From Methylobacter sp. S3L5C (lineage in GTDB: Bacteria > Pseudomonadota > Gammaproteobacteria > Methylococcales > Methylomonadaceae): a stretch of DNA of 64,000 nt. Positions 3 through 13,563 of this stretch are shown one piece after another. Under the pieces are notes generated by a model that was given only the letters and a program-made list of their open reading frames with translations, was not told the DNA's origin and searched no databases. Position 1 is the first letter of the stretch. The number at the start of each line of letters is the position of its first letter. The stretch is from assembly GCF_022788635.1 (NCBI RefSeq), contig NZ_CP076024.1, forward strand, positions 4,317,503 to 4,381,502, in the 5' to 3' direction. Position numbers and translations under genes: made by a program.

Positions 3-1748
3 CAAAGTCTGTTTGGCGACTTACCGGAATTGGGCGATTATTATGGTGAGGTGACGCGCCGTTACAGTCGTATCGAAGCCAAGAAAAAAGAACATCCGGA
101 GATTATTGAACAAGAACCCGGTGATGATGTAACCATAGAAGTTGAAGTACCGCATACCGCGCTATGTGTCGAGGCTCGTGAAGGCCGATTGTATATTTTT
201 ATGCCACCGCTAACGTTACTGGAACATTATCTGGAACTGGTCGCCGCCATTGAAGCGACTGCTGCCACCCTGGAGATGCCTATAGTACTGGAAGGTTATG
301 AGCCACCGCGTGATTATCGTATCGAACGCTTAATGGTGACACCGGATCCCGGTGTTATTGAGGTGAATATTCATCCGTCCAAAACCTGGTCGGAATTAGT
401 GGAAAAGACCACCATTATTTATGAACAGGCGCACCTGACCAGACTGGGTACTGAAAAATTTATGCAGGATGGTCGTCATACCGGAACTGGCGGTGGCAAC
501 CACATTACCATGGGTGCGGAAATGCCGACCGACAGCCCACTTTTGCGTCGTCCTGATTTATTACGCAGCCTGATTACTTACTGGCAACATCACCCCGGTT
601 TGTCGTATTTATTTTCAGGTATGTTTATCGGCCCTACCAGTCAAGCCCCGCGTGTTGATGAAGGTCGGGATGAAAAACTCTATGAGCTGGAAATTGCTTT
701 TCAGCAAATACCTGAAGGTGAAGTCCCGGAGCCCTGGTTGGTTGATCGCTTGCTGCGTCATTTACTTACTGACATCACCGGCAACACGCATCGTTCCGAG
801 TTTTGTATTGATAAGCTATATTCACCTGACAGTTCAACAGGAAGATTGGGCATTCTCGAACTGCGTTCTTTTGAAATGCCTCCCCATGCCCAAATGTCAC
901 TGGTACAAATCGTGTTGCTGAGATCATTAATTGCCTGGTTTTGGCGCGAACCTTATAAACACGACTTGGTGCGCTGGGGAACTGAATTGCACGACCAATT
1001 CATGTTGCCGCATTATGTTCGCGAAGATATGAAACAAGTCACAAAAGACTTACAAAGAGCAGGTTTTGGTTTTGATATGGAATGGCTGGAGCCGTTTTTC
1101 GAATTCCGCTTTCCACGCTATGGCAATACCCGGATTGACGGCATTGACATGGAGTTGCGTTTTGCCATTGAGCCTTGGCATGTACTGGGCGAAGAAGTCA
1201 GTAGCACCGGCACCGCGCGTTATGTAGATTCATCGGTTGAGCGCATCCAGGTATCGGTCACCGGCTATACTGAAGGGCGCTATGTCGTTACTTGTAACGG
1301 CCGACGTTTGCCCATGCGCAACACCGGTCGCAAAGGTGAGTTTGTTGCCGGTGTCCGTTATCGGGCATGGCAACCACCTTCAGCCTTGCATCCTACAATA
1401 GCGCCACATGTGCCCTTGGTATTTGATGTCATTGATACCTGGAATGGCCGCTCAGTCGGTGGTTGTAAATATTATGTCGCGCATCCCGGTGGTCGCAGTT
1501 ATGATGATTTTCCGGTTAACGATTATGCAGCAGAAACCAGACGCATGACACGCTTCTGGGACTATGGGCATACCCCGGGAGTTATTATCAGACCACCGAT
1601 TGCGACCACTCGGGTAGCCGCTTCAGATAAACCATTATTGGCAAAATTCAGCATTACTGATGCAGCACCAAGAGCCATGGCACCACCCGAGGAAGAGTTG
1701 AGCACAGATTATCCTTTTACACTGGATTTACGCCATCGTAACCGGTAA
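3..1748 (+). CDS. DUF2126 / transglutaminase-type protein, C-terminal part (5' end outside window)
   Basis: The reading frame is open from the first bases of the window: codons from base 3 read QSLFGDLPEL before the TTG at 30, so the gene starts upstream and only about 580 C-terminal residues are visible. The segment matches the DUF2126 region of large (about 1100 aa) proteins that usually carry an N-terminal transglutaminase-like domain. A glycine-rich motif, HTGTGGGNHITMGA, is visible about 160 residues in. DUF2126 has been linked to amide-ligase-type chemistry and typically co-occurs with circularly permuted ATP-grasp, alpha-E, transglutaminase and Anbu genes. All of these follow within 13 kb, which supports a role in the same peptide synthesis or modification pathway. 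The substrate is unknown. Confidence 0.85.
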   Translation, partial: QSLFGDLPELGDYYGEVTRRYSRIEAKKKEHPEIIEQEPGDDVTIEVEVPHTALCVEAREGRLYIFMPPLTLLEHYLELVAAIEATAATLEMPIVLEGYEPPRDYRIERLMVTPDPGVIEVNIHPSKTWSELVEKTTIIYEQAHLTRLGTEKFMQDGRHTGTGGGNHITMGAEMPTDSPLLRRPDLLRSLITYWQHHPGLSYLFSGMFIGPTSQAPRVDEGRDEKLYELEIAFQQIPEGEVPEPWLVDRLLRHLLTDITGNTHRSEFCIDKLYSPDSSTGRLGILELRSFEMPPHAQMSLVQIVLLRSLIAWFWREPYKHDLVRWGTELHDQFMLPHYVREDMKQVTKDLQRAGFGFDMEWLEPFFEFRFPRYGNTRIDGIDMELRFAIEPWHVLGEEVSSTGTARYVDSSVERIQVSVTGYTEGRYVVTCNGRRLPMRNTGRKGEFVAGVRYRAWQPPSALHPTIAPHVPLVFDVIDTWNGRSVGGCKYYVAHPGGRSYDDFPVNDYAAETRRMTRFWDYGHTPGVIIRPPIATTRVAASDKPLLAKFSITDAAPRAMAPPEEELSTDYPFTLDLRHRNR

Positions 1749-1967
1749 TTTTTACTCGCCAAGGTGAGTTTTGCAAATTGGGATACGACCCCATCCATGG
1801 GAGCATATCCCAACCAGTGGACTACTTTAATTAATACGACTGTTGAAACGTATTTTGCCCACCGAAACGAAAAATAGTGGACAATAATGACGGAACTTTT
1901 CATCCGTAATGGCTTGGTCAGTATCAAACAACCAGATAACGACACCTTACTATAGAGATAGATTTAT

Positions 1968-3269
1968 ATGAGCGATAAATTAAAACTACTAACTCCGGCA
2001 ACCTTGATACTGGAAGATAAAAGTTATTCATTACCAACCTACATCGGTGTTGAAGGTGAAAAAGCCATTGATATTACCAAATTACGTGGCCAAACCGGTT
2101 ATGTGACACTGGATGACGGTTACGGTAACACCGGTGCCTGTGAAAGTGCCATCACTTACATTGATGGTGAAAAAGGTATACTTCGTTATCGTGGTTACCC
2201 GATAGAAGAATTGGCTGAACATTCGCGATTTGTCGAAGTTGCTTATCTGTTGCTCTATGGTGAATTGCCAAGCAGTGATCAATTACTGACCTTTTCAACC
2301 CGTCTTAATGAGTCGTCTATTATTCATGAAGATATGCATCATTTTTTCAACGGCTTCCCACGCGGATCTCATCCCATGGGAATTCTTACCACAATGGTTG
2401 CCTCATTATCCACTTTTTATCCGGTGCCTGATGAGCTGGATGAAGCCACAGAAATACAAATTGTCGCCAACCTGGTTTCTCAGGTACGCACCATCGCTGC
2501 ATTTTCTTATAAAAAATCAATCGGTGAACCCCTGGTTTATCCTTCCATCAAGTACAAATACGCCAGTAACTTTATGAACATGATGTTCTCGTCACCAGTA
2601 CGTGATTATCAACTGGATCCTGACATTGTTCGCGCCATTGATATGCTGTTGATACTGCATGCAGATCATGAGCAAAATTGCAGTACTTCGTCAGTACGTA
2701 CCGCAGGCTCCAGCATGGCTAATGTGTATGCCGTCATTACTGCGGGTATTGCTGCGCTATGGGGCCCACGCCATGGCGGAGCCAATCAGGAAGTGATTAA
2801 AATGCTGGAGCAAATCCATGCAGAAGGGGGTGATGGAACCGAATTTATTAATCAGGCAAAAGACAAAAATTCATCCAGTCGACTAATGGGCTTTGGTCAT
2901 CGTGTTTATAAAAACTTTGATCCCCGCGCCCAAGTATTAAAACAGCATTGTGACAAGTTACTTAACAAACCGGGTATCAATGATCCACTACTGGATATTG
3001 CCCGACGCATTGAAGAAATTGCCCTGAAAGATGACTATTTCATTTCCCGTAATTTATATCCCAATGTAGATTTTTACTCAGGTCTAATACTACGCGCAGC
3101 AGGTATACCTACCAATATGTTTACTGTTTTATTTGCTATTGGCCGTATGCCCGGATGGTTGGCACATTGGCGTGAAATGATCCATGGTGAAAAAGTCACT
3201 ATTTATCGTCCCCGTCAAATATATACCGGCGAGACATTACGTCATTATCAGGATATTAAGCAAAGATAA
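1968..3269 (+). CDS. gltA: Citrate synthase, type II
   Basis: Condenses acetyl-CoA and oxaloacetate to citrate in the cytosol at the entry of the TCA cycle. The 433-residue length is normal for the hexameric Gram-negative type. The catalytic set is visible: H269 in GPRHGGAN, H311 in GFGHRVYKNFDPRA and D368 in NVDFYSG. The HADHEQNCSTSSVR block is also typical of this family. The ATG at 1968 gives the expected N-terminus. The gene stands alone between the DUF2126 gene (218 bp upstream) and the ATP-grasp fusion (372 bp downstream, with a large palindrome between). Its place inside the ATP-grasp/transglutaminase locus is probably incidental, since no functional tie is evident. Confidence 0.97.
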   Translation: MSDKLKLLTPATLILEDKSYSLPTYIGVEGEKAIDITKLRGQTGYVTLDDGYGNTGACESAITYIDGEKGILRYRGYPIEELAEHSRFVEVAYLLLYGELPSSDQLLTFSTRLNESSIIHEDMHHFFNGFPRGSHPMGILTTMVASLSTFYPVPDELDEATEIQIVANLVSQVRTIAAFSYKKSIGEPLVYPSIKYKYASNFMNMMFSSPVRDYQLDPDIVRAIDMLLILHADHEQNCSTSSVRTAGSSMANVYAVITAGIAALWGPRHGGANQEVIKMLEQIHAEGGDGTEFINQAKDKNSSSRLMGFGHRVYKNFDPRAQVLKQHCDKLLNKPGINDPLLDIARRIEEIALKDDYFISRNLYPNVDFYSGLILRAAGIPTNMFTVLFAIGRMPGWLAHWREMIHGEKVTIYRPRQIYTGETLRHYQDIKQR

Positions 3270-3641
3270 AGATCTTAACCGTATTGTTGTATGGAACCTT
3301 AAATTAATTAAGCCCATAAGGCGAGCCGTGTAAGCCTCAGATTTCAAGGGACATACGGCAGGCCTTACAGAAAATTAATGTCATTTAAACAACGAAGTCA
3401 TCTATACCTATACTCCGTACGGTCATGTTTACGGAGTTAATGATAGAGTTATTTTATTCGAGAGCAAGGTGCAAAAACAGGTGTATAGCTGGCTATGTAA
3501 CTGTTTTTGCAACGCGGCTATCGGATAAAACGGCCGATCAGAAAACCTAAAATATGACCGTGCGGAGTATATACAACTATTTACTTATCAGCTTCCTAAG
3601 AAATTGTCAGGCCGACCATGAATAAACATAAGGAATAATCC
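3270..3641. other. Intergenic stretch with a large palindromic repeat
   Basis: There is no convincing gene here. The stretch is dominated by the nested inverted-repeat element at 3410-3570. The remainder holds the leader of the downstream GTG-initiated gene, whose ribosome binding site AAGGA lies at 3630-3634. Confidence 0.6.
3410..3570. repeat. Nested inverted-repeat element (MITE- or REP-like)
   Basis: Outer arms of about 20 bp (3410-3429 and 3551-3570, ATACTCCGTACGGTCAT versus the inverse of ATGACCGTGCGGAGTAT) pair with about two mismatches. Inside them GCAAAAACAG (3471-3480) pairs perfectly with CTGTTTTTGC (3501-3510), around a small ATAGC/GCTAT stem. The region between the arms also pairs partly (TTTTATTCGA against TCGGATAAAA). 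The whole 161 bp can therefore fold as one long imperfect hairpin. No protein is encoded and I see no clear target-site duplication. It could be a non-autonomous mobile element or a transcribed structured repeat after gltA. Confidence 0.65.
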
Positions 3642-6212
3642 GTGCGTAACGATAACAACCCTGCCAATGATATTGGCACGCAATATTACGCGACGCAACT
3701 TGGCATTTACGATGAAATGTATGCCACTGAAAATAAAGCGCTACCTTACTGGGAGCGCTTTATGGGCGCACTTGAAGCTATGGGCAGTGAAAAGATTGAG
3801 CTACGCCGTAGAGAAGCCCAACGGTTGCTGCGTGAAAATGGCGTCACCTACAATGTTTATGGTGACTCACAAAATTTAACCAGGCCATGGCGGCTTGATC
3901 CTGTTCCCTTACTGATTAGCAGTGAGGAATGGTCGGTTATTGAAACAGGACTTAAGCAACGTGCGGCGCTGCTTGACCTGATTCTAAAAGATATTTACGG
4001 CAAACAAAACCTGCTAAAAAAAGGCTTGCTGCCCGCTGAACTGGTTTTAGGTCATGAAGGCTTTTTACATCCGTGTGTCGGGGCATTACAAAATCAGCAA
4101 CGACATCTGACTATTTATTCAGCCAACCTTGCCCGTGGCCCCAATGGTCGTATGTGGGTATTGGATGACCGCACTCAGGCACCTTCCGGTTCAGGCTATG
4201 CACTGGAAAACCGCACCGTAATGACACGCGTTCTGCCGGATATTTTTCGTGAGACGCAAGTCCATCGCTTATCCGTTTTTTTTAAAGCCTTACGTAAAGG
4301 ACTTGCTGATATTGCGCCGCACAACAAAGAAGATCCGCGCATAGTTATACTAACCCCCGGCCCACTCAATGAAACCTATTTTGAGCATGCCTATCTGGCC
4401 TCTTATCTTGGTTATACCCTTGTTCAGGGCGGTGACCTAACGGTGCGCGATGGTCGTGTATGGCTTAAATCATTGACCGGTCTGCAAGCTGTCGATGTTA
4501 TTTTACGCCGAGTTGATGACTCCTTCTGCGATCCACTGGAATTGCGCAGCAGTTCACAACTGGGCGTGGCAGGACTACTAGAAGTTGTGCGTCGTGGTAA
4601 TGTCGCCATTGCCAATCCTTTAGGCAGCAGTATCCTTGAAAATCCTGGTTTACTGGCATTTTTACCGAGATTATCCCGGCATTTTTTAAATGAAGAGCTC
4701 AAACTGTCCTCGGTTGCAACCTGGTGGTGCGGACAGCGTCGCGAACGCGACTTTGTCCTGCAAAATCTTGATAACCTGGTCATTAAGCCTATCAATCGTA
4801 GTATGGGTAATCATGCCGTTTTTGGTGGTGAATTAAGTAGCAAAGAAAAAGAACAACTGCGTAGCCAAATTTTGGCCAAACCGCATTTATTTATAGGTCA
4901 GGAACAAGTCAGTTTCTCTACACTACCGGCATTTATCGACCATCGTATCGAACCACGTAACGCCGTCATACGCAGTTTTGTGGTCGCCAGCGGCGATGAT
5001 TATGTAGTGATGCCCGGTGGACTTACCCGTATCGCCCGCCAAAAAGATAATTTTATCGTTTCAAATCAGGCTGGCGGCATTAGTAAAGACACATGGGTAT
5101 TAGCCTCTGAACCTGACAAGCCGATAAGTTTATGGACGCAACCCAAGCGTAATCAACTGATTGATGCAGCCACCGAACCGCTAACCAGTCGCGCCGCAGA
5201 CAACCTGTTTTGGGTAGGCCGACATCTTGAACGCACTGAAGCAGTAACACGACTTTTGCGAACCATATTACTAAAATTAAGGGAATCTTTGGAGTTTAAG
5301 GACTCCATTGACACTGAATGCCTTAACGTATTGTTGCGCACCTTGACTCAGGTTACCGGCACTTATCCCGGCTTTGTAAAAGGCGATACACAGCTATTGA
5401 AAACACCTGAAGCCGAATTATTATCACTGGCTAAAGATGGTCATCGCAAAGGTTCGTTGACGGCAAATATTCAAGCCTTTTTTCAATCAGCCTTCAGTAT
5501 TCGTGACTTTTGGTCACAAGATACCTGGCGTAGCGTAGACAATATCCAACGTCGATGGCAACAGCGTGTCATCAATAATGAACTCAATATCGAACAGTTA
5601 CAAAATAATCTGGATGATTTAATTACCGGCATCGTCGCCTTTACCGGCTTAACCAATGAGAGCATGACCCGTGAAGCCGCATGGCTAATGCTTGACAGTG
5701 GTCGCAGACTGGAGCGTGCCTTGGCGCTGATTGCCTTACTTCGCTCAACATTGGCACTACAACACGAGGATGCCTTACAAAATCAGGTGCTTGAGGCGGT
5801 TCTGGTTTCAACTGACAGTTTAACTATTTATCAGCGCCGCTACCGCTCCTTTATCCAGCTACCGATGGTACTGGAATTATTATTACTGGATGAAACCCAT
5901 CCACGCTCGGTTGCCTACCAACTGCATCAGTTATGTGTCCACGTGGAAGCATTGCCGCGCTGCAAAGGCAATAGTCATCTCAGTAAAGAAGAGCGGTTAA
6001 TTTTAAAAGCTTACACAGACCTGCGCCTGTGTAATGTACTTGAATTAACCCAAACTACCGAAAATAAAGCTATTTATATTGATTTTGAAAAGTTACTGGC
6101 AAATACGACTGATTTGTTATGGAAATTTGCAGAAGTTATTGCCGATGCTTATTTCAGCCATTCGCAGACTTCGGAGCTGATGATACTCAATACCCCTGAG
6201 GATGAACTGTGA
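3642..6212 (+). CDS. Circularly permuted ATP-grasp / alpha-E domain fusion protein
   Basis: A two-domain protein of 856 aa. Residues about 20-480 are a circularly permuted ATP-grasp (DUF404/DUF407 type), with the blocks WVLDDRTQAPSGSGYALENR, ILTPGPLNETYFEHAYLA and VDVILRRVDDSFCDP. Residues from about 514 (TSRAADNLFWVGRHLERTEA) to near the end are an all-helical alpha-E (DUF403) domain. ATP-grasp enzymes of this group are thought to make amide or peptide bonds; alpha-E is their obligate partner of unknown action. The start is GTG with AAGGA seven bases upstream; an upstream ATG at 3618 is closed by a stop. The stop overlaps the next start by 4 bp (GTGA), so the transglutaminase gene is co-translated. 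The same two domains are encoded separately at 10591-12980. Confidence 0.93.
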   Translation: MRNDNNPANDIGTQYYATQLGIYDEMYATENKALPYWERFMGALEAMGSEKIELRRREAQRLLRENGVTYNVYGDSQNLTRPWRLDPVPLLISSEEWSVIETGLKQRAALLDLILKDIYGKQNLLKKGLLPAELVLGHEGFLHPCVGALQNQQRHLTIYSANLARGPNGRMWVLDDRTQAPSGSGYALENRTVMTRVLPDIFRETQVHRLSVFFKALRKGLADIAPHNKEDPRIVILTPGPLNETYFEHAYLASYLGYTLVQGGDLTVRDGRVWLKSLTGLQAVDVILRRVDDSFCDPLELRSSSQLGVAGLLEVVRRGNVAIANPLGSSILENPGLLAFLPRLSRHFLNEELKLSSVATWWCGQRRERDFVLQNLDNLVIKPINRSMGNHAVFGGELSSKEKEQLRSQILAKPHLFIGQEQVSFSTLPAFIDHRIEPRNAVIRSFVVASGDDYVVMPGGLTRIARQKDNFIVSNQAGGISKDTWVLASEPDKPISLWTQPKRNQLIDAATEPLTSRAADNLFWVGRHLERTEAVTRLLRTILLKLRESLEFKDSIDTECLNVLLRTLTQVTGTYPGFVKGDTQLLKTPEAELLSLAKDGHRKGSLTANIQAFFQSAFSIRDFWSQDTWRSVDNIQRRWQQRVINNELNIEQLQNNLDDLITGIVAFTGLTNESMTREAAWLMLDSGRRLERALALIALLRSTLALQHEDALQNQVLEAVLVSTDSLTIYQRRYRSFIQLPMVLELLLLDETHPRSVAYQLHQLCVHVEALPRCKGNSHLSKEERLILKAYTDLRLCNVLELTQTTENKAIYIDFEKLLANTTDLLWKFAEVIADAYFSHSQTSELMILNTPEDEL

Positions 6213-7156
6213 AATACCGAATTACTCACAGCACCTTGTATCACTATAGTCAGTCAGTCGGATTATGCCAGAATGAAGTCAAATTACAGCCACGTAATTT
6301 CTGGCGTCAGCATTGTCACAACAGCCGTTTTGACATTAAGCCGACACCAATGGATTTTCGCGAGCGAACTGATTTTTTCGGCAATCGCGTGACTTATTTC
6401 GCTATCCAGCAGCCTCATTCGCAACTGATCGTTACCGCAATCAGTGAAGTAACCATATTTCCCAGAGAAAACAATCTGGATTTATTTAATCAGTTAACCT
6501 GGGAGCAAGTGTGCAGCCTGTTACAAGGAACGCCGCTGCAAATACCATCACAAAGTGAGCAAAGTCCAAGTCAAACTCAAAGCCAGGTACAAATTCAGGA
6601 TAATAATCTTGAAATACTGGACGCACGGCAATACGTTATTGACTCGCCAATGGTGACCATTATTCCTGAGCTTGCTGACTATGCGCGCAGCTCGTTCCTC
6701 CCCAACCGGGCGTTGGTGGATGTTGTGCATGATTTAATGGGGCGCATATACAAAGACTTTACCTACGACCCAACCTTTACCACTATCGCGACACCCTTAT
6801 CTGAGGTACTCAATTTTCGTCGAGGTGTCTGTCAGGATTTTGCGCATTTGGCTATTGGTTGTTTGCGTGCCTATGGCATCGCTGCGCGTTACATCAGTGG
6901 TTATGTTGAAACGCTTCCTGAACCCGGCAAGCAGCGTTTGACAGGTGCTGATGCTTCCCATGCGTGGTTTTCTGTCTATATTCCCGGTACTGGTTGGCTG
7001 GATTTTGATCCTACCAATAATACCATTCCGCTGGATCAACATATCACACTGGCCTGGGGCCGTGATTATGCCGATGTAACACCGCTTAAAGGCATTGCTT
7101 TTGGTGGCGGGCAACATACATTGTCGGTATCAGTGGACGTGTTAAGGCTGGAATAA
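6209..7156 (+). CDS. Transglutaminase-like cysteine protein (bacterial transglutaminase N-terminal + core)
   Basis: The N-terminus (KYRITHSTLYHYSQSVGLCQNEVKLQPR) is the typical bacterial transglutaminase-like beta domain. The C-terminal half is the transglutaminase/papain-like core with a visible triad: C208 in RRGVCQDFAHLA, H251 in GADASHAWFSVY and D267 in WLDFDPTNN. A Gln/Ser-rich insert (about residues 112-132) separates the halves. Members of this family usually act as peptidases or amide hydrolases rather than cross-linkers. The GTG start overlaps the stop of the ATP-grasp/alpha-E fusion, so the two products are made together. The substrate is probably the product of that ligase, by inference from context. 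No signal peptide is apparent. Confidence 0.93.
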   Translation: MKYRITHSTLYHYSQSVGLCQNEVKLQPRNFWRQHCHNSRFDIKPTPMDFRERTDFFGNRVTYFAIQQPHSQLIVTAISEVTIFPRENNLDLFNQLTWEQVCSLLQGTPLQIPSQSEQSPSQTQSQVQIQDNNLEILDARQYVIDSPMVTIIPELADYARSSFLPNRALVDVVHDLMGRIYKDFTYDPTFTTIATPLSEVLNFRRGVCQDFAHLAIGCLRAYGIAARYISGYVETLPEPGKQRLTGADASHAWFSVYIPGTGWLDFDPTNNTIPLDQHITLAWGRDYADVTPLKGIAFGGGQHTLSVSVDVLRLE

Positions 7157-7190
7157 CCGAGAAACAAGCAATCATAAACTTAAAAAATCA

Positions 7191-7388
7191 CACCACGAAG
7201 AATCACGAAGAAAAGATCAAGCCCTGGTCTACGATACTGGTAGGGAGTCGAAGTTGCAAACTACAAACAAAAGGTTTGAAGACTTTAATCACTTTTAAAA
7301 CGTGAGCAACGTGGTTACAAAACGCGTCATAGTTCAACACGAAAAAAGATCAAGGTAAAAACTTCGTGCCCTTCGTGTCTTCGTGGTG
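7191..7388. repeat. Degenerate CACGAAG repeat region with terminal inverted repeats
   Basis: CACCACGAAG at 7191-7200 is inverted as CTTCGTGGTG at 7379-7388. The CACGAAG word recurs next to each end (7204-7210 and, inverted, 7362-7378). An internal AAAGATCAAG word occurs twice (near 7212 and 7346) in direct orientation. This kind of CACGAAGA/CACGAAA repeat is a common intergenic repeat in proteobacteria; a related copy is at 23230-23257. It separates the transglutaminase from the ParA-like gene. Confidence 0.55.
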
Positions 7389-7441
7389 ATAATTTTTTAG
7401 ATTTTTTACACCTAACTAACTTTTAACTTAAAGGCATGACT

Positions 7442-8137
7442 ATGAGTACCATTCATTTTATCGGCGGCGAAAAAGGCGGCGTCGGAAAATCCGTTGTTGC
7501 CCGTCTACTGGCACAATACATGATTGATAAAGATATTCCCTTTATCGGTTTTGATACCGATAGATCACATGGCTCGTTACTACGCTTTTACACTGACTAT
7601 GCATCACCGACTGTTATCGATGATTACCAAAGCCTGGATGCTATTATAGAAACCGCTTCGGCAGAACCTGAGCAGCATATTTTAGTTGATCTTGCTGCAC
7701 AAACCCATCATCCATTAGGTAAATGGATAGAAGAATCGGGGGTACTGGAATTGTCAGAGGATTTAGGGATCTCGATTTATTATTGGAATGTAATGGACTC
7801 AGGTAAAGACTGTGTGGATTTACTGAACAAATTACTCACTCAATATGGCACGCGTCTTAACTATATTTTGGTGCAAAACCAGCTTCGTGATGAACACTTT
7901 AACATTCTGGAGTTTTCGGGCGTTAAAGAACGTGCCTTGGCTTTTGATGCCAAAGTTATTACCCTAAAGCGCCTGCATGCACCGGTAATGACCAAGATTG
8001 ATAGTAACAGCTACAGCTTTTGGGCCGCAAAAAACAAAGATACCGAAAGCCTCAACGCCTTGGGTTTACTTGAAAGACAACGAGTTAAAATCTGGCTAAA
8101 TCATGCTTATAAAGAAATTGAATCGCTGGGTATTTAA
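7442..8137 (+). CDS. ParA/MinD-like P-loop ATPase (mobilization-protein type)
   Basis: A SIMIBI-class P-loop ATPase of about 231 aa. The deviant Walker A motif GGEKGGVGKSVVARLL is at the N-terminus, FIGFDTDRSHGSLLRFY resembles switch I, and ILVDLAAQTH resembles Walker B. Proteins of this form are often labelled mobilization or StbB/ParA-like, but no relaxase, ParB or plasmid gene is nearby. Another ATG lies six bases upstream (7436). The one at 7442 sits 8 nt after AAAGG (7429-7433) and is preferred. It lies between the two transglutaminase genes, on the same strand, so it may be a regulatory or localizing ATPase of the ATP-grasp/Anbu locus. That role is inference. Confidence 0.85.
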   Translation: MSTIHFIGGEKGGVGKSVVARLLAQYMIDKDIPFIGFDTDRSHGSLLRFYTDYASPTVIDDYQSLDAIIETASAEPEQHILVDLAAQTHHPLGKWIEESGVLELSEDLGISIYYWNVMDSGKDCVDLLNKLLTQYGTRLNYILVQNQLRDEHFNILEFSGVKERALAFDAKVITLKRLHAPVMTKIDSNSYSFWAAKNKDTESLNALGLLERQRVKIWLNHAYKEIESLGI

Positions 8138-8242
8138 GGTCTTTCATTGCCACAATCAGTTGATAGGCTTAGCCAACCGGATAATACCGAAAAACTGTTT
8201 AATTTAGGGTAATCATGAGTCATTTTCGCAGGGTTTATCGAT

Positions 8243-9049
8243 ATGAAATTAAGGGTTAGTTGTAATCTTGACTTCCAGATAGTTGAGGCGAGTGTTTTGA
8301 TTTTAATGCTGCGTCCTTTTAGAGGCTTACAGCAATGGATAAACCATGAGGCCTACACCATAGAACCTGCCATACCAATAATAGAATGCACTGACAACTT
8401 TGGCAACTCATGTCAGCATCTGTCAGCACCTGTTGGAGACTTTTTGATCCATACCTCGTCTGAGGTCATGGTAAATGATAATAGTGATATTGCGCCCGGC
8501 GCTTATTTTGTTGAAATACAGTATCTTCCCAACGAAGTACTTACCTTTCTGTTACCCAGTCGTTATTGTGAATCCGACCGGTTTGGCGATCTTGCCAGAG
8601 ACATAATTTGTGACGCCCAGCCAGGTTACGATCAAGTCAGTAAAATTAATGCCTGGGTTCGGGAGTCTATCCAGTATTTACCCGGCTCCAGTGAATTTCC
8701 ACTATCCGCTGTTGAAGTACATTATCGTGGTTATGGTGTATGCCGCGACCTTGCGCAACTTGCCATAGCGCTCTGTCGCAGTATCAGCATACCGGCGCGA
8801 CTGGTCGTGGGTTACCTGTATAATTTGCAGCCCATGGATTTACATGCCTGGTTTGAGGCCTACATTGGCAATCAATGGTACACCTTCGACCCAACACAAT
8901 TTGACTCCAGGGGCGGCAGAGTAATCATTGCTTTTGGGCGCGATGCCGCAGATGTTTCCATATTTCATCAATTTGGCGCAGGCTGTTTATTGAACAACAT
9001 GGACGTTCGGGTCGATTTACTGGATAATTCATCGATTACAACTTTATAA
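8243..9049 (+). CDS. Transglutaminase-like cysteine protein (second copy)
   Basis: 268 aa. An N-terminal beta domain (MKLRVSCNLDFQIVEASVLILMLRP) leads into a transglutaminase core with C167 in GYGVCRDLAQLA, H201 in MDLHAWFEAYI and D216 in YTFDPTQF. It differs clearly from the other transglutaminase at 6209: it is shorter, lacks the Q/S-rich insert and has an LRPFRGLQQW element. It therefore belongs to a separate subfamily and is not a recent duplicate. The Anbu peptidase gene starts 16 bp downstream, indicating one transcript. An upstream ATG at 8215 is in another frame and soon hits a stop, so 8243 is the start. Confidence 0.92.
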   Translation: MKLRVSCNLDFQIVEASVLILMLRPFRGLQQWINHEAYTIEPAIPIIECTDNFGNSCQHLSAPVGDFLIHTSSEVMVNDNSDIAPGAYFVEIQYLPNEVLTFLLPSRYCESDRFGDLARDIICDAQPGYDQVSKINAWVRESIQYLPGSSEFPLSAVEVHYRGYGVCRDLAQLAIALCRSISIPARLVVGYLYNLQPMDLHAWFEAYIGNQWYTFDPTQFDSRGGRVIIAFGRDAADVSIFHQFGAGCLLNNMDVRVDLLDNSSITTL

Positions 9050-9065
9050 CAACGGCTAAATCTTC

Positions 9066-9821
9066 ATGACTTATTGTATTGCAGCTTCTATAGACGAAGG
9101 ACTTATTCTTGTTTCTGACTCAAGAACCAATGCCGGTATTGATAATGTCAGCACGCATGGCAAAATGCACGCATTTGATACGCTAAGCGACCGTAAAATT
9201 ATTTTACTCTGTGCTGGCAACCTGGCGACAACTCAGGCCGTTTTAGAACAATTACATCGTGACAAAATAAAAAATGCCAAAATCAATTTTAATAATGTAG
9301 AGAGCCTGTTTGAGGCAGCCGAATATTTGGGCCAGGTTAGCGTTGAAAAACAGAAGCAATATGTCAGTGCACCTGGGCAATCAGCATTTAACCCCTCCGC
9401 CAGCTTTATTTTAGCAGGTCAAATTGGCACTGATACCCATGGGGCTTACATGGTTTATGCAGAGGGTAATAGTATAACCAGCTCAGCCAACACACCTTTT
9501 CTACAAATAGGCGAAAGTAAATACGGTAAACCCATACTGGATCGATTTCTTAAATTGGGCACCTCAATAGACGAAGCTGCACGTTGCTGCCTGGTGTCTA
9601 TGGACTCTACCATACGCAGTAATGCCAGCGTCGGCGCACCTGTAGAAATGTTGATTTACCGTAAAAACAGCTTTAGTCTGGAGGAATATTATTGTTTTGA
9701 CGATGATGATGATTATATGTTGCAGCTTAGACGTAGCTGGGAAACCAAACTACGTGAAGCGATTGCATCACTGCCCTGTCTAGATAAAAAATTGAATAAA
9801 AACATGCATGTCGCTCTATAA
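9066..9821 (+). CDS. Anbu-type proteasome-like peptidase
   Basis: 251 aa. It matches the Anbu branch of the Ntn-hydrolase/proteasome-HslV fold. After removal of Met1 the N-terminal nucleophile would be Thr2 (MTYCIAASI). The supporting Asp18 (VSDSRTNAGID) and Lys33 (HGKMHAF) are in the expected places, followed by LLCAGNLATTQAVLEQL. Known Anbu proteins form large ring or open-helical oligomers, and their genes usually sit with ATP-grasp, alpha-E and transglutaminase genes, exactly as here. No cognate AAA+ unfoldase is present in the window. An acidic patch (DDDDDY) near the C-terminus is notable. Confidence 0.93.
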   Translation: MTYCIAASIDEGLILVSDSRTNAGIDNVSTHGKMHAFDTLSDRKIILLCAGNLATTQAVLEQLHRDKIKNAKINFNNVESLFEAAEYLGQVSVEKQKQYVSAPGQSAFNPSASFILAGQIGTDTHGAYMVYAEGNSITSSANTPFLQIGESKYGKPILDRFLKLGTSIDEAARCCLVSMDSTIRSNASVGAPVEMLIYRKNSFSLEEYYCFDDDDDYMLQLRRSWETKLREAIASLPCLDKKLNKNMHVAL

Positions 9822-9911
9822 CATCATTGGCTTGATACCAATAAGTGGCTGGTGGCTTAAAACCAGCCATGATCTGTTTTAAAAAACCACAAGCACTTTA
9901 GAGAATTAACG

Positions 9912-10370
9912 ATGGGCAAAGCCAGCCGAAAAAAACAGTTACAAAGACAACAAAAACCGTTTGAAAGCGTTAAATTATCGGCAGCTCTGATAGAATTATG
10001 TGCAGAATTTGAGCCCGAAAATCTGTCAACCAAGGAATTTGAGAACCTTATTGCTCTGGCAGCAGTCGCATGGAATATTGGGGTATTACCCAAAGAAGAA
10101 CGTATCGATAAGCTTACTGCATTTATAGATGAAATGCCCGCCATGCGGCAAGAATTGGAAAATGAATTGAGCCCTATAGTCAGTGATTACCCAAAAGATG
10201 GTCACCTTTCACCGGCAAAAACAACACTTCACTTTCTGGGTTCGCTGATTCAGCGCAAAGACGAACTATTTCCAAACGACAAGCGGCTTATCGTCAATTT
10301 TAATGTCAAAGACAGCCTAAAAGGCCCGCACCTTACCGTGTCATCGGCCCCAATAAAGACTAAAAAATAA
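9912..10370 (+). CDS. Conserved-looking small protein of unknown function in the Anbu locus
   Basis: 152 aa. The N-terminus is strongly basic (MGKASRKKQLQRQQK), followed by a mostly helical acidic middle (ALIELCAEFEPENLSTKEFENLIALAA) and a C-terminal part ending in KTKK. There is no signal peptide or membrane segment, and I do not recognise a family. It follows the Anbu gene by 90 bp on the same strand. GAG at about 9900 lies shortly before the ATG. Its position suggests a partner of the Anbu/transglutaminase system. The basic tail could bind nucleic acid, but nothing in the sequence proves it. Confidence 0.75.
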   Translation: MGKASRKKQLQRQQKPFESVKLSAALIELCAEFEPENLSTKEFENLIALAAVAWNIGVLPKEERIDKLTAFIDEMPAMRQELENELSPIVSDYPKDGHLSPAKTTLHFLGSLIQRKDELFPNDKRLIVNFNVKDSLKGPHLTVSSAPIKTKK

Positions 10371-10546
10371 CACTAAGCCAGCCTGTTTATTTTTTATTAA
10401 AAGGTCAATTTAGGGTTATTGACCAAAAGCATGGCTATCGCCTTTCAGAAATTAAACTTTCACACCAAATGCTTGCGTTGCTTAAGCCACATCGTTCCCT
10501 GTAGGCATTGCTGTTTTCACCCTGAAAACCAAGGCACGTAAGGCAC

Positions 10547-10575
10547 GGCCCTAAGTTCTTAACTAATTCAGGGCC
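10547..10575. terminator. Weak hairpin between convergent genes
   Basis: GGCCCT (10547-10552) pairs with AGGGCC (10570-10575) in the 220-bp gap between the converging 152-aa gene and the alpha-E gene. There is no T-run on either strand, so a terminator role is tentative. Confidence 0.25.
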
Positions 10576-10590
10576 CTGCCTCTCGCGACT

Positions 10591-11529
10591 TTACTCCTCG
10601 GTAGCCGTCAAAAACCAGTTATCGGCAATTTGAGAATGTAATTCTCCCAATTTGTTTTGTAAACCATCAAGAATACTACGTAGTTGATCTTCTGTGGTTT
10701 GCCGGGTATCAATGCCTTGCACATAGGCATCCAGCTCAACAAGTTTCAAAAGCAACGGTATATTATTAGGTAACTTACTGATACAAAGTGATATTTCTGC
10801 TATGCAGCAACCTACAGATCTGGGCAAATCTGTATCCAGCAACAGAAAATTAAGAACATCATCGCCTTTAACCCTGCTGCGTATTTGTTGACGGTACATC
10901 AATAGAGCACTCAGAGCTTTTAAAACATTCATCCATAAAATAGTCTCGTATTGGCGCATTTCATCACTGCGCGATTCCGATAGTAGCAAGGAAGCCAAAT
11001 CCAGAATGCGACTGGTCATATCGGCACGCTCAATATTTCTACCTAAAATAATAAACCGATAAGGGTGATTATGGCTCATATAGCCCGACAACAGACCCGT
11101 AAATCGCTGACAACCTTTCAGTATCTCATTAAGAAATAATACTCGTTGACGCCTGTTAACAACCGTTTCCAGATTATTTTTTGCAAACAAATACATTTCG
11201 TTGACTTGCTCCCAAGCCTCATCCGGCAACAGCTCGCGCGAGGTACGAATGTTCTCCCTCGCCGCACTTAATGACGAAAATAAAGAACCTGTATGACTGG
11301 CATCAGCCAACAGAAATCGGGTGATATTACGTTCATTGGCGACATTATTTTTTTCGTAGAATTCTTGTTCCGAGGCACTGATAAGGATCAGTTGTCGCCA
11401 ACCCATTTCAACACCCTTAGGTAAGTCCATTAATAAATTCATGTGGACGCTAACCAGTCTGGCAATGTTTTCGGTACGTTCCAGATAACGTGCTAGCCAA
11501 TACAGGCGTTCTGCCGAGCGTGATAACAT
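10591..11529 (-). CDS. Alpha-E domain protein (DUF403)
   Basis: 312 aa, all-helical alpha-E family. It begins with the family's hallmark MLSRSAERLYWLARYLERTENIARL and carries conserved-looking ERADMTSRILD and LLLDTDLPRSVGCC blocks. It is the free-standing counterpart of the C-terminal half of the fusion at 3642. Its ATG overlaps the stop of the upstream ATP-grasp gene by one base (TAATG), a tight translational coupling. Alpha-E proteins always accompany this ATP-grasp type. Whether they are scaffold, regulator or enzyme is not established. Confidence 0.92.
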   Translation of the reverse strand: MLSRSAERLYWLARYLERTENIARLVSVHMNLLMDLPKGVEMGWRQLILISASEQEFYEKNNVANERNITRFLLADASHTGSLFSSLSAARENIRTSRELLPDEAWEQVNEMYLFAKNNLETVVNRRQRVLFLNEILKGCQRFTGLLSGYMSHNHPYRFIILGRNIERADMTSRILDLASLLLSESRSDEMRQYETILWMNVLKALSALLMYRQQIRSRVKGDDVLNFLLLDTDLPRSVGCCIAEISLCISKLPNNIPLLLKLVELDAYVQGIDTRQTTEDQLRSILDGLQNKLGELHSQIADNWFLTATEE

Positions 11530-12980
11530 TAGTTTTCCTCCATATTAATAACCCAAGTATCTTTACTGCCACCACCTTGCGAGGAGTTAACTATCAAGGA
11601 ACCTTTTTTCAAGGCAACCCGGGTTAACCCGCCGGCTGTTACATAAGTGTTTTCGCCTTGTAAAATAAAGGGACGCAAATCAATATGACGCGGCTCCAAC
11701 TTACCCTTGCACAATGTTGGTGCGGTTGAAATAGCTAAAGTGGGCTGTGCAATATAGTTGCGCGGATCTTTTTGAATAATTTCCCGAAAATGTGCGACTT
11801 CTTTTGCCGTGGCGTGAGGCCCCACCAACATACCATAACCACCCGACTCATTGGCCGGCTTTACTACCAGCTCAGCTAGATGTTCAAGTACATAAGCAAG
11901 ATCTTCTTTATTACTGCATAAATAAGTCGGTACATTCGGCAGTATCGGCTCTTCATTCAAATAAAAACGTATCATTTCCGGTACATAAGCATAAACGACT
12001 TTATCATCGGCAACACCGGCACCCGGTGCATTAGCCAGCGCAACATTACCCGCTTTCCAGGCACGCATCAAGCCTCGAACACCCAGTGTTGAATCTTTGC
12101 GGAACACTTCAGGATCAAGAAAATCATCATCTATACGGCGGTAAATAACGTCAACTTTTTCCAGTCCTTGGATAGTGCGCATGTAGACACAATCATCATC
12201 ATTAACTACCAAGTCGCTACCTTCAACCAATTTCGCGCCTATTTGCTGGGCTAAATAGGCATGTTCAAAATAAGCTGAATTGTAAATGCCAGGGGTCAAT
12301 ACCACACATGTAACTTGTCCATTTTGGTGCGGGGCAATAGACAAGAGCATGTCATGTAAATGGGTGGGGTAATCATCAATGGGTAAAATATGAATATCCT
12401 GTAACAGCTCTGGAAACACCCGCTTGGTGATAACCCTATTTTCCATCATGTAGGAAACCCCGGATGGCACCCTTAAATTATCTTCCAACACATACATGAT
12501 ACCATCTTTGTCGCGCACCAAATCAGAGCCACAAATATTGGCCCACACATTATGCCTGGGCTTAACACCGATGCATTCCTTACGAAAATTCTTGGAACTA
12601 TTAATAATTTCACCAGGCATTTTTCCAGCCTTGATAAAGGCTTGCTCGCCATAAACATCACTGATAAAACAGTTTAAAGCAGTTAACCGTTGTTTTAAGC
12701 CTTTTTCTATAATTAGCCATTCTTTACCATCAATAATGCGTGGAATAATATCGAAAGGCCATGCACGATCTATATTACCTTCATCACTGTAAACCGTGAA
12801 ACTGATACCCATTTCCATAATGGCCAATTCAGCAGCTATTTTCCGTTTATCAATATCCTCTTTTTTAAGCGAATTTAAATATTGACATAACTTATGACTC
12901 ACTGCGCGCGATTGAAACTCCGAGAACATAAGTTCATCGTAAGCGCTTTCAGTTTTATAGTTTTTCCAGATTGATTTCAT
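11529..12980 (-). CDS. Circularly permuted ATP-grasp protein
   Basis: 483 aa, the usual length for the stand-alone DUF404/DUF407 ATP-grasp. Visible blocks are MYVLEDNLRVPSGVSYMMENR, VLTPGIYNSAYFEHAYLAQQ, VDVIYRRIDDDFLDP and VVKPANESGGYGMLVGPHA. The order matches a circular permutation of the ATP-grasp fold. It probably ligates an amino acid or peptide with ATP use. It forms an operon with the alpha-E gene at 10591. Together they are a second set of the domains fused at 3642, divergent enough in sequence that they probably act on a different substrate (inference). Confidence 0.93.
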   Translation of the reverse strand: MKSIWKNYKTESAYDELMFSEFQSRAVSHKLCQYLNSLKKEDIDKRKIAAELAIMEMGISFTVYSDEGNIDRAWPFDIIPRIIDGKEWLIIEKGLKQRLTALNCFISDVYGEQAFIKAGKMPGEIINSSKNFRKECIGVKPRHNVWANICGSDLVRDKDGIMYVLEDNLRVPSGVSYMMENRVITKRVFPELLQDIHILPIDDYPTHLHDMLLSIAPHQNGQVTCVVLTPGIYNSAYFEHAYLAQQIGAKLVEGSDLVVNDDDCVYMRTIQGLEKVDVIYRRIDDDFLDPEVFRKDSTLGVRGLMRAWKAGNVALANAPGAGVADDKVVYAYVPEMIRFYLNEEPILPNVPTYLCSNKEDLAYVLEHLAELVVKPANESGGYGMLVGPHATAKEVAHFREIIQKDPRNYIAQPTLAISTAPTLCKGKLEPRHIDLRPFILQGENTYVTAGGLTRVALKKGSLIVNSSQGGGSKDTWVINMEEN

Positions 12981-13563
12981 AATGCGTCACTATTAATGTT
13001 TGGTTTTATAAAAATGAAGCATGAATAGTGCCAAATTTTAAATATACCGGTTATACAATGGTTTTTTATGTTGCCAATAATAAAATTTTATTCTGCATTG
13101 ATAGTAAAAACCAACACAACGTCATTGATAATATTATCAGCGTTCTTCTTTAGCAAGGGGATTGATATAAAACAAATTACAGCATCTTGTATTTTTGCAC
13201 GAAAGTAGTGAGCAGTTAGGCTCATAAAACGATACCGACCGAAGCATTTAAAGACTTCAATCCTTTTCAAAACAAGAGTAAAAGTATTACAAACTTAGGT
13301 ACAACTGAGCTTTAAACTATCCTTAACGCAACAAAATGTGCTTTAACCATTAACACGAAATTTTTACGCTAACGATATTGCTTTTTTCATGAAATTGGCA
13401 TTCTTTAGTATTTTTTTAAAAGAATAGACTATTTAATTCACTTTTGCATTTAACACTGACAATAGACTTGAACTCTATGAGCCTAGCGGCTGCTTTTAGA
13501 ATGATGACCGTCATACTGTGCTTTAACAATATGACGTAGAGGCAGGGAGGGACGATAAATTGC
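12981..13563. other. 583-bp AT-rich intergenic region
   Basis: I see no credible gene here. The short frames present have no family features and poor starts. It probably carries the promoter of the minus-strand ATP-grasp/alpha-E pair on its left side and the 3' region of the amgK-murU-dodecin operon on its right. CGTCATA (13509-13515) pairs with TATGACG (13530-13536) just downstream of the dodecin stop codon, without a T-run. Confidence 0.5.

Follow-up and report, generated by a model that had tools for sequence, protein, structure and literature searches.

Introduction

Since 2008-2009, Anbu, a proteasome-type hydrolase, and the proteins encoded with it in an operon have posed a puzzle: they are widespread, and nitrogen-responsive in several bacteria. 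Iyer et al. 2009 are said to have predicted a peptide-tagging or amidoligase system composed of a circularly permuted ATP-grasp, a circularly permuted glutamine-synthetase-like (GS-like) ligase, an N-terminal nucleophile (Ntn) peptidase and alpha-E. A proteasome-type peptidase beside an amide ligase is also found in the mycobacterial and actinobacterial proteasome with pupylation. In this study, we analyzed a gene cluster of such families at one end of a 64,000-nucleotide stretch of the Methylobacter sp. S3L5C genome (4.8 Mb, one contig; the stretch, hereafter the window, lies at 4317503-4381502). The cluster encodes one ATP-grasp and one alpha-E as free proteins (AG2 and AE2) and a second set fused into one protein (FUS). 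Judged from its residues, FUS is probably a former ligase without a catalytic site that now assists the AG2-AE2 pair at 10591-12980.

The Anbu operon and its predicted role in peptide synthesis are described in the cited passages of PMC5666114 and PMC6376114, which refer to Iyer et al. 2009 and also to Valas and Bourne 2008. An open dodecameric ring is characteristic of the Anbu family; for Anbu of other species an open ring was reported (PMC5666114), and for the ATP-grasp of the Yersinia bercovieri operon the release of phosphate from ATP (PMC6376114). Nitrogen control of homologous operons has been published, too. The genes I35_5080-83 of Burkholderia cenocepacia are among the common targets of sigma-54 and NtrC (PMC5491218). 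In Pseudomonas putida, PP_2685 and PP_2688 were up by log2 4.4 and log2 4.0 with nitrate versus ammonium (PMC8050072), while RNA-seq under nitrogen limitation showed PP_2686-2688 up 11- to 15-fold in the wild type, attributed to NtrB/NtrC (PMC7801951). A sigma-54 survey includes COG3484 (PMC12316311), a site before a CP_ATPgrasp_1 gene is given in a Bradyrhizobium study (PMC13207237), and urea use correlates with these domains in marine metagenomes (PMC3597751). A passage on NtrC in Caulobacter concerns a different transglutaminase homologue, HvyA (PMC10274813). The view of the initial annotation of the window, that the locus might represent an undescribed system, is thus superseded by the published operon with its proposed role and by the published nitrogen control.

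Results

Gene content of the cluster

The genes are arranged in the order DUF2126, citrate synthase (CS), FUS, TG1, PARA, TG2, Anbu and a 152-amino-acid open reading frame (ORF), followed by AE2 and AG2 on the opposite strand, convergent with TG2-Anbu. The ligase, transglutaminase-like and peptidase genes are as follows (window coordinates):

3..1748 (+): C-terminal part of DUF2126, GS-like putative amidoligase (Pfam PF09899, E 8e-283)
3642..6212 (+): FUS, circularly permuted ATP-grasp fused to alpha-E, 856 amino acids (PF14403, CP_ATPgrasp_2, and PF04168, Alpha-E)
6209..7156 (+): TG1, transglutaminase-like (PF08379 and PF01841, Transglut_core), 4-base overlap with FUS
8243..9049 (+): TG2, transglutaminase-like, Anbu operon type (PF01841; PDB 3isr, E 3.6e-41)
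9066..9821 (+): Anbu, proteasome-type Ntn hydrolase (PDB Anbu matches)
10591..11529 (-): AE2, free alpha-E protein (PF04168, E 6.5e-80)
11529..12980 (-): AG2, free circularly permuted ATP-grasp with complete motifs (PF14403, E 1e-165; PDB 3n6x, E 5.8e-156)

The initial annotation had listed DUF2126, two ATP-grasps, two alpha-E domains, two transglutaminase-like proteins and Anbu. This list proved correct: all of these domains were above the Pfam cut-off except Anbu, which was identified by PDB Anbu matches. The annotation had overlooked the N-terminal transglutaminase domain of DUF2126, the citrate synthase and PARA.

The fused protein lacks residues that are invariant in free ATP-grasps

For comparison of motifs, 84 free AG2 and 45 FUS sequences (26 from the genus and 19 others, all different) were aligned and numbered according to AG2. 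Here, "the genus" means the Methylobacter group, i.e. records with an Anbu 86-90% identical to that of the window, which carry the labels Methylobacter (M. tundripaludum SV96 among them), Methylovulum, Methylococcaceae and Methylococcales. All FUS and all AG2 rows differed from each other, and no stretch from these named records shared more than one fifth of its DNA with any of the other stretches. The residues E166, D167, N168 and R170 as well as G380, G381, Y382 and G383 were invariant in 84/84 AG2. N168 was present in 0/45 FUS, being R in 43 and H in 2, and E166 likewise in 0/45 (D in 26, A in 9, G in 7, S in 3); R170 was changed to Q in 45/45, D167 was kept in 44, and the glycine-rich loop G380-G381-Y382-G383 was scattered. 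The E-x-N motif forms the magnesium site in glutathionylspermidine synthetase (Gss), and the glycine-rich loop is the ATP-closing loop of ATP-grasp enzymes generally. Both features, as expected for an active ATP-grasp ligase, were found in 84/84 AG2, whereas FUS lacks the combination, with E-x-N in 0/45.

Twenty further FUS from other Pseudomonadota families gave the same result for N168 (0/20), and all nine free ATP-grasps from the stretches of these FUS keep both motifs. In addition, the R-E-N-x-R stretch, D170, R174, D177 and W199 of free alpha-E are missing from the alpha-E part of most FUS rows; E17-R18, E167-R168 and P236-R237 are kept.

In a phylogenetic tree, FUS (29 rows) and AG2 (68 rows) were split by one branch with a support of 100 in the Shimodaira-Hasegawa-like approximate likelihood ratio test; this was a quick tree of 97 of the 129 rows in which the FUS branches are long, and several FUS rows were flagged for their composition. 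A recent duplication as origin of FUS is ruled out by this old, separate clade. Between species of the genus, the ratio of nonsynonymous to synonymous substitution rates (dN/dS) of FUS was 0.03-0.08, similar to that of its neighbors. FUS is therefore a working protein under purifying selection, and its interpretation as a decaying pseudogene is ruled out.

The fused protein occurs together with a free ATP-grasp

Among 149 Pseudomonadota genomes, 47 from 22 families carry FUS, and all 47 also carry a free AG2, while 42 have a match without FUS and 60 have neither (Fisher p 3e-14 for the dependence of FUS on free AG2). The 47 FUS genomes were assigned by reading match rows, and 20 of the 47 loci were examined as sequence. 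In these 20, TG1 adjoins FUS in every case, and 18 of the stretches include DUF2126, 9 AG2-AE2 and 3 Anbu; in another locus, L171, TG1 is absent beside FUS. Alpha-E, which was not used for the FUS dependence, is present in at least 172 of 299 genomes among the matches listed, low-scoring fused copies not counted.

In 140 Gammaproteobacteria genomes, alpha-E was found in 44, DUF2126 in 28, Anbu in 37 (two of them partial) and FUS in 13. The genomic association of these families, on which the initial annotation had relied, stood up well: free alpha-E is present in 28/28 genomes with DUF2126, 13/13 with FUS and 35/37 with Anbu, both exceptions being the partial Anbu matches. Within 15 kb, DUF2126 and alpha-E were found together in 23/28 genomes, Anbu and alpha-E in 27/35, DUF2126 and Anbu in 13/24, FUS and DUF2126 in 9/11, FUS and alpha-E in 10/13 (one beside a broken alpha-E) and FUS and Anbu in 2/8. 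These counts are lower bounds because many genomes are drafts; coordinates were compiled by hand, with an alpha-E fragment (G103:C39:7480), the partial Anbu of G058 and G176 and two small pieces of G163 dropped. One of the two genomes with FUS near Anbu is that of the window, and in genomes outside the genus the fused set is mostly found at a distance from Anbu. Two ligase sets flanking one peptidase, as noted in the initial annotation, are therefore a local arrangement. One further observation concerns genome G103, in which remains of a broken AE2-AG2 pair lie beside DUF2126-FUS-TG1 (L170:7480-9132) and an intact free alpha-E is found on another contig.

In 74 Anbu loci outside the genus, AG2 or AE2 was found in 56, DUF2126 in 15, FUS in 7 and CS and PARA in 0 each, with many of these stretches stopping at contig ends. 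The picture is that of a core pair, AG2-AE2, with Anbu, DUF2126 and FUS-TG1 as optional modules.

FUS is better read as a pseudo-ligase partner because it has lost several residues invariant in AG2 and was never found without a free ATP-grasp. Alternatively, FUS and AG2 could each ligate, using two substrates or acting in two steps and sharing Anbu, as had been suggested for the two sets. Both ATP-grasps and both alpha-E domains are indeed present, conserved and under purifying selection, FUS still matches the solved ATP-grasp 3n6x (E 2.3e-92), and its variant residues are themselves conserved (Q179 in 45/45, R177 in 43/45), which could mean a changed active site. With E-x-N and the glycine-rich loop altered, R-E-N-x-R and the four alpha-E residues named above missing from most rows, and FUS not found without AG2, we regard two active ligase sets as unlikely, though as the strongest of the competing explanations.

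Promoters of the sigma-54 type precede both transcription units

A GG-N10-GC promoter near TGGCAC-N5-TTGCW precedes the first gene, as expected from the sequence of a member of the sigma-54/NtrC regulon. The site before AG2 is located 37 bases before the start codon:

13018..13033 (-): sigma-54-type -24/-12 promoter before AG2, TGGCACTATTCATGCT, one mismatch to TGGCAC-N5-TTGCW

Counterparts were found 36-47 bases before AG2 in 16/16 other loci examined with the native pair. The element of the DUF2126 gene lies outside the window, 82 bases before the gene (L003:12252-12267), and has two mismatches. The upstream DNA could be read for 19 other DUF2126 genes of the genus, 11 of which have the element 71-85 bases before the start. 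A 348-amino-acid protein that appears membrane-like by eye and is without a Pfam match (L003:11028-12074) precedes DUF2126 in many genus stretches.

Sites with at most two mismatches were counted and compared with the expectation from shuffled sequences. They were found before 40/78 ATP-grasp genes (1.8 expected) and 14/34 DUF2126 genes (0.6 expected). Counts for the other genes were 2/107 versus 3.1 for Anbu, 3/71 versus 1.9 for AE2, 2/25 versus 0.7 for PARA and 4/35 versus 1.1 for TG1; no such site was found before CS (0/21), FUS (0/31) or TG2 (0/28). Because the genus rows are related and not independent, the count was repeated without the genus using dinucleotide shuffles. Thereby, 18/68 AG2 versus 2.0 expected (largest of 50 shuffles 6) and 7/43 DUF2126 versus 1.1 (largest 3) were obtained, while Anbu gave 0/79 and TG1 4/39 versus 1.3, which equals the largest shuffle. 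The cluster hence looks tied to nitrogen shortage, as far as regulation in the genus can be read from a promoter motif.

DUF2126, transglutaminase-like proteins, Anbu and AE2

The whole DUF2126 gene (L003:12350-15748; 1132 amino acids) starts 1,651 bases upstream of the window edge, so its N-terminal approximately 300 amino acids, which form a third transglutaminase domain, lie outside the window. The structural model of DUF2126 had a predicted local distance difference test score (pLDDT) of 72 and a predicted template modeling score (pTM) of 0.75. Glutamine synthetases were 49 of the 50 PDB entries among the matches listed, the best with E 6.7e-3 and none with E <= 0.001, and TM-scores were low, which would be expected if the fold is permuted or the model poor. 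The model thus weakly supports a GS-like fold and is no proof of it. The Cys-His-Asp residues were found in 45/45 TG1, in TG2 with C in 32, H in 30 and D in 32 of 32, and in the DUF2126 N-terminus with C in 44, H in 43 and D in 43 of 46, the remainder being gaps. For AE2, the model was all-helical and of high confidence (pLDDT 92.7); of the 303 Foldseek matches in the PDB with E values up to 10, none reached E <= 0.001.

With 22.1 bits, the Anbu gene scored just below the cut-off of 22.4 for the Pfam family Proteasome. It matches five distinct PDB Anbu sequences (5loy, 5nyw, 5lox, 5nyj and 5nyf), the best PDB match having E 2.5e-65 (a designed Anbu) and the next 7.7e-58, and T2, D18 and K33 (counted with Met1) are invariant in an alignment of eight rows, which places it in the Anbu family. 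In M. tundripaludum SV96, Anbu is separated from PARA-TG2 by two genes, one for a glucokinase and one for a GH15/phosphorylase-b-kinase-like protein (L073:11208-15418). In genome G013, a second, divergent operon Anbu-TG2-AG2-AE2 (L043:5320-10440), its Anbu 41% identical to that of the window, is present in addition to the main cluster.

Citrate synthase, PARA, the small ORF and the search for a precursor

The remaining genes within the cluster are:

1968..3269 (+): CS, type I citrate synthase (NF004126/TIGR01798, above cut-off)
7436..8137 (+): PARA, ParA/TraL/MobD-like P-loop ATPase (NF010461, E 1e-12, below cut-off)
9912..10370 (+): 152-amino-acid ORF without Pfam or NCBIfam match at E <= 0.001

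Beyond AE2-AG2 lie genes that we take, by sequence and context, to be MurU, AmgK, LptD and SurA. PADLOC profiles of known anti-phage defense systems matched none of nine cluster proteins at E <= 0.001.

CS is present in the cluster throughout the genus and, among the loci examined, within the cluster in this genus only (0/74 other Anbu loci). The window genome has a second copy at C1:2471657. In 9/26 genomes, three of which are 99% complete, the cluster CS is the sole citrate synthase match, including the near-complete G006, G008 and G021. As a guess, the CS of the cluster may couple the supply of carbon for 2-oxoglutarate to this nitrogen signal.

PARA is 80-89% identical within the genus. 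Its relatives are MobD-like proteins of cyanobacterial plasmids, with 30-35% identity among the ten matches listed. None of the 74 Anbu loci outside the genus contains it, and in L070 and L071, which belong to the genus group, TG2 has no PARA beside it. Homologues (E <= 1e-10) were found in four other genomes, all with DUF2126, on contigs other than that of the cluster; seven neighbors of these off-cluster homologues were unrelated or unknown by Pfam. A role of PARA as unfoldase or partner of Anbu is not supported, given its MobD/TraL-like relatives, the off-cluster homologues and its absence from the outside Anbu loci.

A co-conserved small precursor protein, for which the initial annotation had suggested a search, was looked for in the cluster gaps and none was found. 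In compact genus loci, the gap TG2-Anbu is 13-35 bases in 23/26 stretches and Anbu-AE2 50-95 bases in 9/9 adjacent cases, and intergenic gaps are below 130 bases in compact species (e.g. L034). Homologues of the 152-amino-acid ORF were found only in L056, L062, L063, L066, L067 and L069 among the stretches searched; it occurs in few species and is not a general component. By the short gaps and the rarity of this ORF, a small precursor peptide as general component is ruled out for the cluster itself.

These results bear on the possibility that proteins receive a peptide tag from the ligases and are then degraded or freed of the tag by Anbu, similar to pupylation or ubiquitin. Such tagging has been proposed in print for the Anbu operon (PMC6376114), and Anbu and ligases adjoin in the window. 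The same source reports in the cited passage that others found no peptidase activity of Anbu. No conserved small tag gene was present in the cluster, where only gaps below 130 bases in compact species and the ORF of few species would be available, and no AAA+ unfoldase domain was detected by Pfam among the ten proteins scanned. We consider protein tagging quite unlikely.

Conservation of the cluster within the genus

Adjacency was scored in 40 genus stretches, excluding the window, where both genes were present; some genomes contribute two stretches. The following neighbors were conserved: DUF2126-CS 21/21, CS-FUS 21/22, FUS-TG1 26/26, TG1-PARA 23/24, PARA-TG2 24/24, TG2-Anbu 26/27, AE2-AG2 23/23 and Anbu-AE2 9/13. 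In L056, Anbu and AE2 are parted by the 152-amino-acid ORF. The gene-order comparison in relatives, called for by the initial annotation, showed that the sets travel together. Chance neighborhood is excluded by the order DUF2126-CS-FUS-TG1-PARA-TG2-Anbu, which recurs across the genus.

In five genomes (G002, locus L052; G016, L051; G018, L054; G019, L048; G023, L047), a distant pair takes the place of the native AE2-AG2 and contains the sole free alpha-E match of each genome. The exchanged AG2 is 52-53% identical to that of the window, lies directly before DUF2126 and has a sigma-54-type site 59-62 bases before it in 5/5. L048, the one exchanged locus in the tree, groups with Azovibrio and Nitrosomonadales. 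The free pair is therefore exchangeable but, in these drafts, not lost. G013 and G020 hold both the native and the exchanged kind of free pair.

Independent neighbors, i.e. two sets and a peptidase from unrelated pathways brought together by chance or as a transferable cluster, would fit the varying order and orientation, the limited linkage within 15 kb (DUF2126-Anbu 13/24, FUS-Anbu 2/8) and the local insertion of citrate synthase and PARA, but are improbable in view of the nested co-occurrence (28/28, 13/13, 47/47), the sigma-54-type sites before both units and the swap of the free pair for one of a distant clade beside DUF2126 in five genus genomes.

Discussion

As best reading, which we put forward tentatively, the cluster encodes a nitrogen-starvation system for synthesis and turnover of amides (peptide or isopeptide), with one active ATP-grasp, a GS-like ligase, three transglutaminase-fold domains, Anbu and a pseudo-ligase. 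Gene content, co-occurrence, promoter motif and the motif loss in FUS are observations; from these we infer, as follows, how the cluster is regulated in this organism, what each protein including FUS does and what physiological role results. RNA polymerase with sigma-54, most likely together with NtrC, would start two units from the promoters before DUF2126 and AG2. AG2 and AE2, by family and complete motifs, would form the catalytic unit, in which a carboxylate is converted to an acyl phosphate and joined to an amine. DUF2126 may be a second ligase of putatively GS-like fold, physically coupled to a transglutaminase-fold domain. FUS could be a non-catalytic subunit for substrate binding or for regulation of AG2-AE2, with products passed to TG1. 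Moving or cutting the amide bonds would fall to the transglutaminase-fold enzymes and Anbu. In this way, amide linkages might serve as a source or a store of nitrogen under ammonium shortage.

A more specific proposal, made with the same caution and at slightly less than an even chance in our estimate, is that a dead ATP-grasp-alpha-E, linked to DUF2126 and TG1, has persisted for very long in Pseudomonadota as obligate subunit of an active ATP-grasp-alpha-E ligase. This would make a simple nitrogen-starvation ligase a multi-enzyme amide-transfer complex, with alpha-E as substrate-carrying or docking module.

Several observations weigh against the nitrogen-starvation reading and the helper role of FUS. 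With respect to regulation, the remaining 8 of the 19 readable DUF2126 genes of the genus are without a site, five of these behind an exchanged AG2 pair that bears one, and outside the genus there is no site before 50/68 AG2. In P. putida, PP_2686-2688 were still up 14- to 20-fold in an rpoN mutant, which therefore speaks against strict sigma-54 control in that strain; the urt genes behave like PP_2686-2688 in the same data, and the Anbu gene PP_2685 was unchanged (1.12) in the nitrogen-limited wild type (PMC7801951). Work cited in PMC5666114 saw no change of expression under various conditions. Published nitrogen and sigma-54 data are consistent with the promoter sites in Burkholderia and point both ways in Pseudomonas. 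For Yersinia Anbu, neither peptidase activity nor a stable complex with the operon partners was observed (PMC6376114).

With respect to FUS, 72 of the 158 columns conserved in AG2 are retained, and among the 20 distant FUS one keeps E166 (L191) and one an SGGRG loop (L177). Since AG2 is common (89/149), part of the FUS dependence is expected by chance. The AG2 profile matched 3n6x only and none of the Gss structures; because the magnesium role of E-x-N is that of Gss, the loss of the motif is an observation and its catalytic meaning an interpretation.

If FUS is a pseudo-ligase that needs AG2, the working unit would escape assays in which each protein is studied by itself. AG2 together with AE2, FUS, TG1 and DUF2126, from nitrogen-starved cells, would then be the unit to assay, and an old question would become testable.

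Comparison with known systems

The families, the Anbu operon and the nitrogen response are already known, while no earlier report of the pseudo-ligase nature of FUS or its dependence on AG2 was found in open-licence PMC papers. As in the pupylation system, a proteasome-type peptidase is located next to an amide ligase; Pup, an unfoldase and a proteasome alpha subunit were absent from the ten window proteins scanned by Pfam. The system attributed to Iyer et al. is reportedly built from the same list of families as found in the window, including DUF2126 with its weakly supported GS-like fold, so that by family content the cluster belongs to it.

The nitrogen-responsive clusters I35_5080-83 of Burkholderia and PP_2685-2688 of P. 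putida contain the same families as the window. The former includes a "large protein containing transglutaminase-like domain" (PMC5491218), which is probably DUF2126. In contrast to these operons, the window has two promoters for one cluster, recognized here as sequence motifs.

Another close relative is the Anbu operon of Yersinia bercovieri and Pseudomonas (PMC6376114, PMC5666114), of which ATP-grasp, alpha-E, transglutaminase and Anbu are all present in the window as AG2, AE2, TG2 and Anbu. Thr1, Asp17 and Lys32(33) in the published numbering correspond to T2, D18 and K33 of the window Anbu. The published four-gene order is not kept, as AE2-AG2 lies on the opposite strand, convergent with TG2-Anbu, and the window cluster adds DUF2126, FUS-TG1, citrate synthase and PARA to the known operon.

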